Source: a virus
Virus record (IMG/VR): IMGVR_UViG_3300048996_000017
Location: 1 to 25,533 of that record
Strand: one strand, 5' to 3'
DNA length: 25,533 nucleotides
The position numbers and the translations under genes are program-made. Below are positions 1 to 23,565 of the stretch, piece after piece. Within the stretch, counting starts at the first letter, position 1. Each line of letters opens with the position of its first letter. Below the pieces are notes generated by a model, which saw only the letters and a list, made by a program, of their open reading frames with translations, ran no database searches and had not been told where the DNA came from.

Positions 1-212
1 GGGCCGTTGTTGAGGAGCTTGCGCCCGGTAATGCGCCGGAATAAATCAACGATCGCCCCGCGTCCGCCAGCTTTCCTCCACTCCCACCACATGTGCCTTT
101 CGCTGTACGAACTGGCGATGGCGCGCTGGGCCGCGCGGCGGTCAGCCTCGGTCACTTTCAAGTAATAGGAAAACGTCCCGTCCTCGTAATGCGTCACAAT
201 CCTGCGAGCCAT
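1..212 (-). CDS. Hypothetical protein, partial (C-terminus beyond window start)
   Basis: The reading frame opens at an ATG (complement of 210-212) and stays open to the window edge, giving 70 residues without a stop. The start follows directly on the TAA of the upstream 44-aa gene. A purine-rich AGGGGTGG lies about 6 nt before the ATG, which fits as a ribosome site. The protein begins MARRIVTHYEDG, has a central run rich in Arg and Ala, then a Trp-rich stretch (MWWEW) and a basic segment (LFRRITGRKLL). I do not recognise a family. It is the most downstream visible member of a four-gene minus-strand unit divergent from the terminase. The stop codon and full length cannot be seen. Confidence 0.7.
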   Translation of the reverse strand, partial: MARRIVTHYEDGTFSYYLKVTEADRRAAQRAIASSYSERHMWWEWRKAGGRGAIVDLFRRITGRKLLNNG

Positions 213-347
213 TTAGACCACCCCTGTGCGGATCGAAACCTTGAATGCTAATGTCACCGATATCGCCATACCATTGGTGAACCGTCGAAATTTCCGTTGC
301 ACGGTCACCGGCACGGGCACGCAATTGAGCTTGCCGCGATCCTCCAT
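213..347 (-). CDS. Small hypothetical protein, 44 aa
   Basis: This is a short gene that length filters would miss. Its ATG (complement of 345-347) overlaps the TGA of the DUF397 gene in an ATGA arrangement. Its TAA (213-215) abuts the ATG of the next gene, so both junctions look translationally coupled. The product starts MEDRGKLNCVPVPV and alternates hydrophobic and polar residues in likely beta strands, with one Cys and a net positive charge. No membrane segment or signal peptide is seen. A competing frame across 142-324 exists but has no coupling to its neighbours. No family is recognised, and the function is unknown. Confidence 0.6.
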   Translation of the reverse strand: MEDRGKLNCVPVPVTVQRKFRRFTNGMAISVTLAFKVSIRTGVV

Positions 348-613
348 CACATCGCCGTCGGCAGGTCGAACTCGTTTCGCTTCACGCCGACGAGGAAAGC
401 CTGCCAGTCGTCAGGGGTGATGGTGAGTACGACCTCGGGGTTCTTCGAGTCCCGCAACTGCACGTGGCCATCGCAGGACCGCATCTCCACGCAGTCGCCG
501 TAGGTACAGGCGCTCGACTTCATCCACCGCGTTTCCACGCACGTCCCCATGCTGCATTCGGTGCTCTTCGTCCACTCGGTCGTCATCATCGCTCCCACTC
601 CGTCGTCGCTCAC
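347..613 (-). CDS. DUF397-family protein with duplicated CVE motif
   Basis: The 88-aa product has the hallmarks of DUF397: a W-x-K-S opening, a G-x-CVE strand, a VQLRDSKNP turn, then W-x-AFL and VKRNEFD at the C-terminus. DUF397 proteins are small actinobacterial partners of XRE-type regulators (WhiJ-like systems in Streptomyces), often adjacent to them. No such regulator is visible here. The N-terminal motif occurs twice at an exact 16-residue spacing (residues 14-29 and 30-45), and each copy carries a C-x4-C pair. The GTG start overlaps the upstream TGA (GTGA). An alternative ATG at residue 9 is preceded by GGGAG, so the first eight residues are uncertain. A role against host regulators or the phage's own switch is inference. 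Confidence 0.8.
   Translation of the reverse strand: MSDDGVGAMMTTEWTKSTECSMGTCVETRWMKSSACTYGDCVEMRSCDGHVQLRDSKNPEVVLTITPDDWQAFLVGVKRNEFDLPTAM
479..574 (-). repeat. Tandem 16-residue duplication inside the DUF397 gene
   Basis: Two adjacent 48-bp units (527-574 and 479-526) encode the pattern W-x-K-S-x-x-C-x-x-G-x-C-V-E-x-R. The nucleotide sequences have diverged, so the duplication is not recent and both copies look constrained at the protein level. Confidence 0.8.
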
Positions 614-846
614 TTTCTCGTCGCCTTCAAAATGCGCTTCATGTTGACCAGCTTGTTGTGCAGCGCGATGTCCTTATACAGCTCGGCGGCCATGTTGAAT
701 TTGTGAATCGAGGACTTGAACTCCTCTCGTGCAAGGTCGTGATTGCCTAGTTCGCGGTACAGCTTCGCCATTACCTCGTGCGCCTGCGCCTGAATCGACA
801 AATTCTCGGCGGTTCGCCGCGCCTTTTTCACCTTGTACTTTCCCAT
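610..846 (-). CDS. Small helical, TPR-like hypothetical protein
   Basis: The 78-aa product starts MGKYKVKKARRTAENL and is strongly helical. The stretch AHEVMAKLYRELGNHDLA followed by an A-x-ELYKDIA segment resembles one or two TPR-type hairpins. Both ends are basic. The ATG (844-846) is preceded on the minus strand by AAAAGGGGAG, which supports this start over a longer frame beginning at 891 that would run into the terminase gene. Its TGA overlaps the GTG of the DUF397 gene, so the two are probably co-translated. It is the first gene of the minus-strand unit, 17 bp from the terL start codon. A protein-interaction role is plausible but no function is assigned. Confidence 0.7.
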   Translation of the reverse strand: MGKYKVKKARRTAENLSIQAQAHEVMAKLYRELGNHDLAREEFKSSIHKFNMAAELYKDIALHNKLVNMKRILKATRK

Positions 847-863
847 GTCTCCCCTTTTCCCCG

Positions 864-2519
864 ATGTCGCTCCGCGACAAGATCGTACCATGGGAGGTCA
901 CGTTGCGACTCCCGTTAGCACCGGACGGCCTGCCCGCCGGTATGCCGGACGAGTACGGAATCGCCACTCTCGGCTGGGGCGTCCTCGCCTGGGGCAACGA
1001 GTTCCTTGCCCAGCCCGACGGCACCGAGGCCGGTCTCCCCTGGGAATGGACGAAGACCCAAGCCCGAATCGTCGCCTGGTGGTACGCCGTTGATAAGCAA
1101 GGCCAATGGCTTTATCGGCGCGGCCAGATCGTATTGCCGAAGGGCTCCGGAAAGTCACCGCTCGCCGCCGCCCTCTCCTGCTGCGCACTGGGAGCCGAGG
1201 TACTTTTCGACGGCTTTGACGCATATGGGGAAGCCGTGGGACGGCCGCACCCGTCGCCGCACGTGCAATTGGCGGCCGTCAGCCAGGATCAGACTGACAA
1301 CACGATGTCGCTGGTGCTCTCCATGCTTCGCGAGGGCAATGCGATCAACGAGATTGAAGGTCTCGACCTCGGTGTCACGCGCGTGCGTACGCGCAACGGG
1401 AAGCTGGAGCCGGTTACCGCGTCCGCGCCTTCGCGAGAGGGCGCGCGACTGACCGATGCCATCCTCGACGAGCCGCACCTGTGGAACACCGTCAATGGCG
1501 GCATCCGGCTCGCCTCCACGTTGCGCCGCAACCTGGGAAAGATGAATGGGCGCTCGCTGGAAACGACGAACGCTTGGACGCCTGGCGAGGAATCCGTCGC
1601 CGAGCTGACCTCGATCTACGCGGACAAGATTGCCGAAGCCGAGAATGACGGCGGCGAGCGGCGCGGCGACGGCGGGCTCATGCGGTACCACCCGAAGGCC
1701 GTTGTCAGGGATTTGTCCGACGAGCCGCGCTTGCGCGAGGCGCTGACCGAGCTTTACCGGGACGCGCCATGGGTGAATGTCGACCGCATCGTCAATGAGG
1801 TCTACGACCCGTCCACCCACCCCGCCGATGCGCGGCGCTTCTATCTAAATGAGGTGGCGAGCGCTGACGACGCATTGGTCACGGCCGCTGAATGGGACGA
1901 GTGCGCCGTCGAAGATACGCTCGAACCTGGCGACGAAATCACTCTGGGATTCGACGGCTCGAAGAGCGATGACTCCACCGTCCTCGTCGCTTTGCGAGTG
2001 TCCGACCGATTCGCCACGGTCCTCGGCGCAATGGAGAAGCCACGCGGCCCGGCCGGTGAGGGTTGGGAAGTCGACCGAGAGTATTTCGACGGACTCATCG
2101 CTTCGGCTTTCGCCCTTTACCGAGTACGCGGTTTCTATAGCGACGTGGCGTACTTCGAAACCTACGTCGACAAGTGGTCCAACGAGTACAGCTCGGGACT
2201 GGACGTAAAGGCGTCCACGAATTCCGCCGTCGGGTGGGATATGCGTGGTCGGCTGTCGCTATTGACGGTCGCGACCGAGCGCCTGGTGGCGGCGATTCAA
2301 GATGGATCGCTGATCCACGACGGCGGGTCTCTTTTGCGTCGACACGTGCTCAACGCGCGTCGTCGGCCGAACCGCTGGGGCATTTCCTTCGGGAAGGAGC
2401 GCAAGGATTCGCCGAACAAAGTCGACGCGTTCGCTGCGCTGCAACTGGCGGATATGGCTCGTGCTGATCTTCTTGCGGAGGCGTCCAAGAAGCGAGTTAG
2501 GACCGGAAAGGTTTGGTAA
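864..2519 (+). CDS. terL: Terminase large subunit
   Basis: This is the ATP-driven DNA packaging motor and nuclease that docks on the portal and cuts the concatemer. The 551-aa product has a Walker A loop PKGSGKS (residues 92-98) and a Walker B DAILDE (198-203), followed by an RNase H-like nuclease domain. That domain shows acidic positions in GFDGSKSDD (D364), SDVAYFETY (D427) and NKVDAFAAL (D521). Length and motif order fit phage TerL. The start is not certain: ATG 864 has only pyrimidines upstream, whereas TTG 903 follows GGGAGG at 5-nt spacing. I kept 864. The stop overlaps the portal ATG (TAATG). No small terminase is visible beside it. Confidence 0.95.
   Translation: MSLRDKIVPWEVTLRLPLAPDGLPAGMPDEYGIATLGWGVLAWGNEFLAQPDGTEAGLPWEWTKTQARIVAWWYAVDKQGQWLYRRGQIVLPKGSGKSPLAAALSCCALGAEVLFDGFDAYGEAVGRPHPSPHVQLAAVSQDQTDNTMSLVLSMLREGNAINEIEGLDLGVTRVRTRNGKLEPVTASAPSREGARLTDAILDEPHLWNTVNGGIRLASTLRRNLGKMNGRSLETTNAWTPGEESVAELTSIYADKIAEAENDGGERRGDGGLMRYHPKAVVRDLSDEPRLREALTELYRDAPWVNVDRIVNEVYDPSTHPADARRFYLNEVASADDALVTAAEWDECAVEDTLEPGDEITLGFDGSKSDDSTVLVALRVSDRFATVLGAMEKPRGPAGEGWEVDREYFDGLIASAFALYRVRGFYSDVAYFETYVDKWSNEYSSGLDVKASTNSAVGWDMRGRLSLLTVATERLVAAIQDGSLIHDGGSLLRRHVLNARRRPNRWGISFGKERKDSPNKVDAFAALQLADMARADLLAEASKKRVRTGKVW
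892..897 (+). promoter_or_regulatory. Candidate Shine-Dalgarno for alternative terL start
   Basis: GGGAGG lies 5 nt before an in-frame TTG (903). It is the only strong ribosome site near the terL 5' end, since ATG 864 has none. It could simply be the coding sequence of W-E-V, so it is listed as a competing start only. Confidence 0.35.
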
Positions 2520-3949
2520 TGGCCGCTCTTGACGAGCTGGGCGCAGTCAATCGCGCAAAGAAGCTGTTCGGGAAGTGGCAGACCGAGCGTGAACGCCTCG
2601 ACGTCATCGACCTTTGGTATCGGTGGCACCAGGAGCCGGTGCGTCTCCCCCGCAATGCGACGCCCGAACTGAGGGGCCTCGCGGACTTGTCGCGGGTGCC
2701 GTGGCTTTCGCTGGTCGTGACGACGGTGGCCCAATCGATGTATGTCGACGGCTACCGGTCGAAGCTCGACGATCCGAGCGCCGAGGACACGGACCCGAAT
2801 TCGCCGTGGCACGTGTGGATGGCGAATGGGATGGACCAGCGGCAAATCGCTATCCACCGTGCGGCGCTCGCCTATGGCTACTCGTTCGCTTCGGTGCTGC
2901 CCGGAGAGAACTTCCTCGGTGAGCCCGAGCCCGTCATTCGGGGAATCAGTCCCCGGAAGATGTACGCGGCCTACGACGACCCGGCCTCCGACGATTGGCC
3001 GATGTACGCGCTGAAGGTCGAGGAGGACGGCGACGATTTCATTTGCCACCTCTTTGACGACCAGCTCGTGCACGAGATCCACGTCGACAACATTGGGGAG
3101 AATTTCTCCTACGCCGGTTCGGTGAAGCACGGACTCGGTGTCGTGCCGATCGTGCGGTACTGCAACGAATTGGATCTCGACGGGCGCACGCCTGGCGAGG
3201 TCGAGCCGCACATCGGCCTGGCGCGGCGGATCAACAAGACCGCCTACGACCGGATGCTCACGCAGCATTTCTCGTCGTGGAAGATTCGCACGGTCGCCGG
3301 ACTCGCCGAGCCCGACACCGAAGAGGCGGCGAACCGCAAGAAGCTGCAATTGCGCCAGGACGACCTTCTGGTCGCCGAGGACCCCGACACCAAGTTCGGG
3401 ACATTGGATGAAACCCCGCTTGAGGGATTCATTTCTGCGTGGAGGAGTGACATTGAAGCCCTTGCCGCCGTCAGTCAAACGCCTACTCACGAACTTACTG
3501 GGCAGCTTGCAAACCTTTCTGCAGAAGCTCTCGCAGCGGCTAGAGCGTCTCTGACGCAGAAGGTCGTCGAGCGGCAGAAGTCGTTTGGCCGGTCGCACGC
3601 ACAGGCATTGCGCCTCGCGGCGATGATTTCCGATGCCGACGAGTACGCGCGTGACCCTTCGGGCCGCGTCACCTGGCAGGACATGGAGATCCGCTCCATC
3701 AGCCAGGCCGTTGACGCGCTGGGCAAGGCGGCGACGATGCTCGGCATTCCCGTCAAGGCTCTCTGGGGTCGCATTCCCGGCGTCGAGCGGTCGGACGTCG
3801 AGGAGTGGGCGAAGATGGCAATGGAGGGCGATCCCATCATGCAAATGCGATGGGAAATGGAGGCGCAGGCAAAGGCTTCTGCGGTTCCCGAGCCCGCCGA
3901 CGTCGAAAGCGCGCCCGAGGAGCAGGCTCCGCGTGTTGTGAGCCAGTAA
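2519..3949 (+). CDS. Portal protein (SPP1 gp6-like)
   Basis: This 476-aa protein is expected to form the dodecameric ring at the unique capsid vertex, through which DNA enters and leaves and on which TerL and the adaptor dock. The N-terminus (LDVIDLWYRWHQEP, then a VPWLSLVVTTVAQSMYVDGYR segment) matches the SPP1_Gp6 portal family. The long middle carries repeated acidic and aromatic strands. A helical C-terminal half (residues about 310-400, ELTGQLANLSAEALAAARASL) fits the stem and crown. The tail is Pro/Glu-rich and probably disordered. Start and stop both use TAATG overlaps with terL and the MuF-like gene, giving the canonical terL-portal-MuF order. Confidence 0.93.
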   Translation: MAALDELGAVNRAKKLFGKWQTERERLDVIDLWYRWHQEPVRLPRNATPELRGLADLSRVPWLSLVVTTVAQSMYVDGYRSKLDDPSAEDTDPNSPWHVWMANGMDQRQIAIHRAALAYGYSFASVLPGENFLGEPEPVIRGISPRKMYAAYDDPASDDWPMYALKVEEDGDDFICHLFDDQLVHEIHVDNIGENFSYAGSVKHGLGVVPIVRYCNELDLDGRTPGEVEPHIGLARRINKTAYDRMLTQHFSSWKIRTVAGLAEPDTEEAANRKKLQLRQDDLLVAEDPDTKFGTLDETPLEGFISAWRSDIEALAAVSQTPTHELTGQLANLSAEALAAARASLTQKVVERQKSFGRSHAQALRLAAMISDADEYARDPSGRVTWQDMEIRSISQAVDALGKAATMLGIPVKALWGRIPGVERSDVEEWAKMAMEGDPIMQMRWEMEAQAKASAVPEPADVESAPEEQAPRVVSQ

Positions 3950-22901: not shown

Positions 22902-23131
22902 TTCCCAAGCCGCTGGCAAACGCGATCGTCATTCTGGTCTCCCTCGTGTGGGCGTCAAATTTCGTCGCCAGTATCTTTCTCAGCGAGTATCAGCCGGACA
23001 GCACTCTCAACTTTGTGTTTATGACGATCGTCGGCGGCGCACTCGCATTGCGGCGCGGTCCCACAAACCCTCCGGGTGATGCCCCGCCGGAACCGCCCGC
23101 ACCTCCGCAACCGCCGGGAGTCGCGCCGTGA
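22898..23131 (+). CDS. Two-TM membrane protein, holin-like, Pro-rich tail
   Basis: The 77-aa product starts at GTG 22898 (GTGA overlap). It has two predicted transmembrane helices (ANAIVILVSLVWASNFVASIF and LNFVFMTIVGGALAL) separated by a short polar turn with SEYQPDST. A cytoplasmic-type tail follows, with Arg residues and then many prolines (DAPPEPPAPPQPPG). Size, two helices and the position after the endolysin suit a class II holin or an antiholin. The cassette contains another better holin match at 23940, so the division of labour is unknown. Its TGA overlaps the GTG of the next gene. Confidence 0.7.
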   Translation: MIPKPLANAIVILVSLVWASNFVASIFLSEYQPDSTLNFVFMTIVGGALALRRGPTNPPGDAPPEPPAPPQPPGVAP

Positions 23132-23565
23132 CCTACATATGGTCGTCCGCACTTTGGGCTTTGGCCGGTCTGCTAGTGGGGTACTTCATTGGCAGAGCTG
23201 GCCGGGAGGTCGTCATTACCGAAACATCGACCGTCCGGCGGACCTCCGTCGGTGACAACGTAATCGGCGTGGTCGTCATCCTTCTCGCTATTGTGACGGT
23301 CATGGGTTTGGCATACCAGGCGTCGGAGGCGAAGCGCGCCACGCATTGCCAAACCGAATTCAATGCCCAGTTCATGCGCGCAATCCAGGAGCGCCAGGAA
23401 TCCGCCGCAACGGAACGGCAAGCCCAGCGCGAACTGCTGACCGCCGTCATCGCCCCCGGACGAAATGGAGGGGGAGCCATTCAGCGCTATATCGACTCCC
23501 TCAATGCGGCAGATGCGCAACGCACTGCAAATCCGTATCCCATTCAACCCGACTGTGGAGCTTAA
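23128..23565 (+). CDS. Two-TM membrane protein with helical C-terminal domain
   Basis: The 145-aa product starts at GTG 23128 (GTGA overlap). Helices at residues about 4-22 (SSALWALAGLLVGYFIGRAG) and 44-63 (NVIGVVVILLAIVTVMGLAY) are joined by a charged loop with TETSTVRRTSVGD. The remaining 80 residues form a polar helix (QFMRAIQERQESAATERQAQRE) with Cys at both flanks (THCQTEF near its start and PDCGA at the C-terminus). No family is recognised. A possible role is a lysis regulator or membrane-anchored partner of the soluble coiled-coil protein encoded next, inferred from the shared operon only. Confidence 0.65.
   Translation: MTYIWSSALWALAGLLVGYFIGRAGREVVITETSTVRRTSVGDNVIGVVVILLAIVTVMGLAYQASEAKRATHCQTEFNAQFMRAIQERQESAATERQAQRELLTAVIAPGRNGGGAIQRYIDSLNAADAQRTANPYPIQPDCGA

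Follow-up and report, generated by a model that had tools for sequence, protein, structure and literature searches.

Why would a phage carry a DUF397 protein with two consecutive copies of its W-x-K-S...CVE unit and, apparently, no XRE regulator to go with it? In antibiotic-producing actinobacteria, DUF397 proteins are present in greatly expanded numbers, as are their XRE partners. The XRE regulator Scr1 requires the DUF397 protein Scr2; direct binding of the two was not obtained in vitro, and published tests of Scr1/Scr2 revealed no toxicity (PMC6262351), as was also the case for 14 DUF397 proteins or pairs (PMC10364602). BldB, which does not bind DNA, hetero-oligomerises with most DUF397 paralogs, in two-hybrid data confined to paralogs of S. 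venezuelae (PMC10294661). Some conflict systems contain DUF397 genes without an HTH gene, and multimerisation has been suggested for them (PMC7159879).

The window, that is, the whole 25.5-kb linear virus fragment analysed here, carries terminase, portal, tape-measure and tail genes. Its DUF397 gene (347-613, minus strand) lies within a leftward cluster of small genes divergent from the terminase. Read from GTG 613, the frame encodes 88 residues, including EWTKSTECSMGTCVETRWMKSSACTYGDCVEMRSCDGHVQLRDSKNPEVVLTITPDDWQAFLVGVKRNEFDL. The ribosome-site context of ATG 589 is better than that of GTG 613, and therefore the native protein probably starts at ATG 589 and has 80 residues. Third codon positions are 89% GC. 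The product matches the PF04149 profile at 67.1 bits (E=1.6e-18; curated cut-off 24), with a further match to PHROG 10815, and contains CVE twice and RDSK once, the CxE and RDS motifs that the family carries in strands 2 and 3 (PMC7159879). As far as its sequence can tell, this is a genuine DUF397 protein, as the earlier note had claimed. It shares Pfam family, CVE/RDS motifs and C-terminal helix with Scr2/SCO4442, SCO4542 and the BldB paralogs (PMC10294661, PMC6262351). It differs from the Scr2/BldB-type partners of WhiJ/Scr1 XRE regulators in the compact, doubled 16-residue C-x4-C unit and in the lack of an XRE gene in the available sequence.

The protein consists of two W-x-K-S-x2-C-x2-G-x-C-V-E-x-R units followed by the RDS core. 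The first unit, WTKSTECSMGTCVETR (527-574, minus strand), is the extra, N-terminal one; the canonical DUF397 core begins with the second, WMKSSACTYGDCVEMR (479-526, minus strand), which falls within the PF04149 match (380-529, minus strand) that also takes in the RDSK motif and the C-terminal helix. The earlier note had read a C-x4-C pair in each of two consecutive units (479-574), and both pairs are present in the translated frame. It had also described an exact 16-residue tandem duplication, which holds for the spacing, the register between units being exactly 16 residues, but not for the sequence. The units agree at only 9 of 16 residues and 30 of 48 bases and thus are not a recent exact copy; an exact duplication of the unit is ruled out, and what is exact is the spacing alone.

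How might the two units be arranged? An AlphaFold2 model based on 54 aligned relatives, with pLDDT 91-96 over residues 41-80, has a helix (residues 67-78), three strands that are clear and one short bridge, where the family fold is described as four-stranded with a helix at the C-terminus (PMC7159879). Unit 1 falls in the low-confidence part of the model, which, the alignment being shallow, is no proof of disorder. Searching by sequence returned no solved DUF397 structure (the best hit, T-cell receptor chains at E=0.11, was judged to be chance), and fold comparison likewise yielded no match in the PDB or among viral models at E<=0.001. In a model of a five-unit viral relative (L170), a pLDDT of about 70-84 is reached solely by the last unit and the core, and the extra units are therefore left unexplained by it. 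On these models, a second domain is a less apt description of the extra units than a flexible extension added at the N-terminus.

It has also been proposed that the paired cysteines bind a metal. A metal-binding or disulfide-linked structure as the purpose of the duplication would fit the two C-x4-C pairs of the window protein and the three found in each of L168 and L172, and cross-linking of DUF397 proteins through conserved cysteines has been suggested (PMC7159879). However, the first cysteine of the pair is absent from most multi-unit DUF397 proteins of hosts and phages, so that the conserved paired ligands of a metal-binding knuckle are missing from these relatives; the model, moreover, gives little confidence for unit 1. 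The proposed metal site thus gains no positive support, and a cysteine-based purpose is very unlikely.

Is the doubling itself peculiar to the phage? The earlier note had taken a single unit to be the rule in ordinary DUF397 proteins and the doubled motif to be novel. Two or three units are present, however, in 73 of the 75 readable host proteins among the best 80 loci that an artificial two-unit consensus recovered from genomes, a set that, being chosen by a doubled query, shows that doubling is widespread and does not give its share of all DUF397 proteins. Both claims fall with this result, and a doubled motif unique to the phage is ruled out. The genera involved are mostly Streptomyces, along with Actinacidiphila, Saccharopolyspora and Actinomadura. 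Three regularly spaced units occur in the host proteins of L120, L123, L124, L132, L134, L135 and L150. Alignments spanning both units are a minority of the matches in four of these host genomes (about 5 of 27 in the Streptomyces genome). When the doubled window protein served as the query, 296 Actinomycetota genomes yielded four matches at E<=1e-9, and the two with readable frames are single-unit.

The Streptomyces multi-unit proteins (e.g., L074, L120) resemble the window protein in having two or three W-x-K-S...CVE units and one RDS core. They differ in lacking C-x4-C, in their period, usually 20 residues (18-26 seen) instead of 16, and in lying mostly directly 3' of an XRE-like gene. At 71 of the 80 host loci, the DUF397 match begins at, or shortly after, the end of an ORF of 240 residues or more, and the ORFs inspected resemble WhiJ/Scr1-type XRE-DUF5753 proteins. 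Since host proteins with an XRE partner can be doubled too, doubling alone is no decoy signal; since most of them are paired, unit number is no simple consequence of the orphan state. Being ordinary in hosts, doubling is of little import on its own.

What is unusual in the window phage is the compact C-x4-C form together with the missing regulator. The single-unit C-x4-C pattern was found in 13 stretches of a viral collection of 2.9 million contigs, and it occurs twice solely in L002, a near-identical copy of the window phage; the doubling of this pattern is therefore no product of chance. The compact unit was found in none of 396 genomes of a phylum-wide sample, many of them poor in DUF397 genes. 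In a family rich in DUF397, it was found in 1 of 121 genomes, which together gave 511 matches to the ordinary pattern. The compact unit is likely to be enriched in viruses relative to hosts.

The absence of an XRE regulator from the window, remarked upon earlier, is borne out by a profile search: seven known phage XRE partners are recovered at E<1e-44, and there is no match in either the window or L002. The latter is a 9.9-kb contig, 99% identical over the DUF397 gene, which extends the sequence by about 1.4 kb to the left and there encodes a sub-threshold MarR-like winged-helix protein. The genes next to DUF397 are complete in these two fragments, and neither fragment has the adjacent XRE-DUF5753 gene of an XRE-DUF397 pair. 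On the downstream side lies the start of a small gene (3-212, minus strand) that is complete in L002 (105 aa), for which no family was found. L002 also has a frame of collagen-like G-P-A/G-P-P repeats at its contig end (9675-9941, minus strand).

On the upstream side, the same leftward cluster contains a small gene at 610-891 (minus strand; ATG 846 is its likely start). Its product could be a partner, forming with DUF397 a phage-specific pair that replaces XRE-DUF397: the genes are adjacent and on the same strand, with a spacing that permits co-translation. Its TPR-like stretch is, however, a sub-threshold match (E about 0.01), and 15 other orphan viral DUF397 loci, surveyed with a crude gene caller, have no neighbour gene in common. 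A TPR-like partner is thus quite unlikely.

Beyond this cluster, the terminase large subunit ORF (729-2519, plus strand; phrog_9, E=3.9e-61), whose true start lies further in, is followed by the portal gene (2513-3949, plus strand; PF05133, E=5.2e-51), which served to find related phages. These are actinobacterial phages, and the window sequence is that of a soil phage with a putative actinobacterial host. DUF397 occurs in 1 of 45 related virus records, in a phage (portal 61%) with a canonical XRE-DUF397 pair beside an integrase-like gene. This patchiness, like the varied neighbourhoods of orphan DUF397 genes, is what would be expected of an accessory gene of host origin that does little or nothing for the phage and whose unit number drifts by slippage. 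Against drift of this kind, the frame, with 89% GC at third positions, and the CVE/RDS core are intact, and tandem DUF397 genes, which are found at 12 of 71 orphan viral loci among the matches listed, suggest retention. A gene of little function is about as unlikely as the TPR-like partner.

How do other viruses carry DUF397? IMG/VR loci collected with DNA patterns (fixed G and fixed spacing), together with their relatives, provided at least 156 DUF397 frames in at least 134 loci, some of them near-duplicates and many on fragmentary records. Of these loci, 63 have an XRE gene nearby, and in 71 none was found. Among the matches listed, multi-unit proteins occur at 20 of the 71 unpaired loci and at none of the 63 paired ones, or, counted by frame, in 21 of 91 versus 0 of 65 (p=5e-6, loci taken as independent). 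Because some unpaired loci end at a locus or contig edge, the search was extended to the whole of 50 unpaired records; DUF5753 is absent from 49 of them, several longer than 100 kb, and the remaining record is a misclassified pair. Integrases of the tyrosine or serine type occur in 24 of 31 paired and 11 of those 49 unpaired records (p=2e-6, records taken as independent), and so the orphans are not simply lysogeny modules. Viral DUF397 thus falls into two populations, one XRE-paired, single-unit and usually accompanied by an integrase, the other orphan, often multi-unit or cysteine-rich and seldom accompanied by one. The window protein is a member of the orphan population.

It is conceivable that the window protein is instead half of an ordinary phage pair, its XRE gene lying in a part of the phage outside the available sequence. 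Both the window and L002 are fragments, the portal-related phage has such a pair, and the cultured actinophages Picard, Samy, Success, PIS 136, Darolandstone and Austintatious (PHROG 10815), which likewise encode DUF397, differ from the window in that all those examined have a single-unit protein adjoining an HTH/XRE gene. Yet the XRE gene is adjacent in every paired viral case counted and the genes adjacent to the window DUF397 are not HTH genes; the near-complete lack of DUF5753 from the unpaired records and of multi-unit proteins from the listed paired cases also speaks against it. A pair cut off by the fragment end is unlikely.

The orphan proteins have up to five units. Closest to the window protein are those of L168, L170, L172, L325, L164 and L167, with no XRE gene, two to five CVE units and, in some, C-x4-C; they belong to other phages and neighbourhoods, and two units of the exact C-x4-C pattern are found only in the window phage. 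Copy number is amplified in the orphans both at the gene level and at the unit level. At least two DUF397 frames, often in tandem, occur in the orphan loci L241, L253, L255, L164, L207 and L235, as well as in L281, L256, L165, L257, L323 and L166 (at least two frames each). In L170 (10651-11043, minus strand) five W/F-x-K-S...C-x-x units precede a single RDS core, near a helicase-like gene, and DUF5753 is absent from the 75-kb record. A group of similar single-unit orphans (W-x-KSS-x-SFANGNCVE...) is seen in L257, L273, L279, L280, L290, L305, L306 and others, many on contigs longer than 100 kb and from several metagenomes.

What, then, could an orphan DUF397 do? Given the orphan pattern and the published findings on Scr1/Scr2, BldB and conflict systems, the simplest answer would be competition with, or mixing into, the regulator complexes of the host, and we tentatively favour a phage protein that competes with, or mimics, host DUF397/BldB-type partners on host WhiJ/XRE regulators. 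DUF397 would be the small protein with which actinobacterial XRE-DUF5753 regulators of the WhiJ/Scr1 type are partnered, here apparently without a regulator of the phage's own. Made during infection, as we infer, it may engage host regulators or host DUF397 (BldB-type) proteins and would then outcompete the native partner or form mixed oligomers, with a shift in host gene expression as the presumed outcome. The extra N-terminal W-x-K-S...CVE unit could add binding surface or valency. Two observations speak indirectly for action on host partners: the window gene and some 70 further viral DUF397 loci are orphans, and DUF397 proteins of the BldB family hetero-oligomerise (PMC10294661).

The interest of the window protein therefore lies in the recurring group of orphans to which it led. 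Should a DUF397 with amplified units and no regulator prove common in phages, action on host partners would become probable. A wider proposal, that actinobacterial phages carry a separate class of DUF397 proteins, free of a regulator and often with amplified repeats, that act as decoys or dominant partners in the large host WhiJ/BldB networks, is at present doubtful. Were it true, it would amount to an undescribed mechanism of host takeover or counter-defence, and a small phage protein would offer a handle on what the host network controls. No published description of a regulator-free phage DUF397 was found in the literature covered, mainly open, with few subscription journals.

Elsewhere in the window, the gene at 23128-23565 (plus strand) matches phrog_10261 (E=5.8e-10), a group of membrane proteins from phages that is classed under moron/host takeover.
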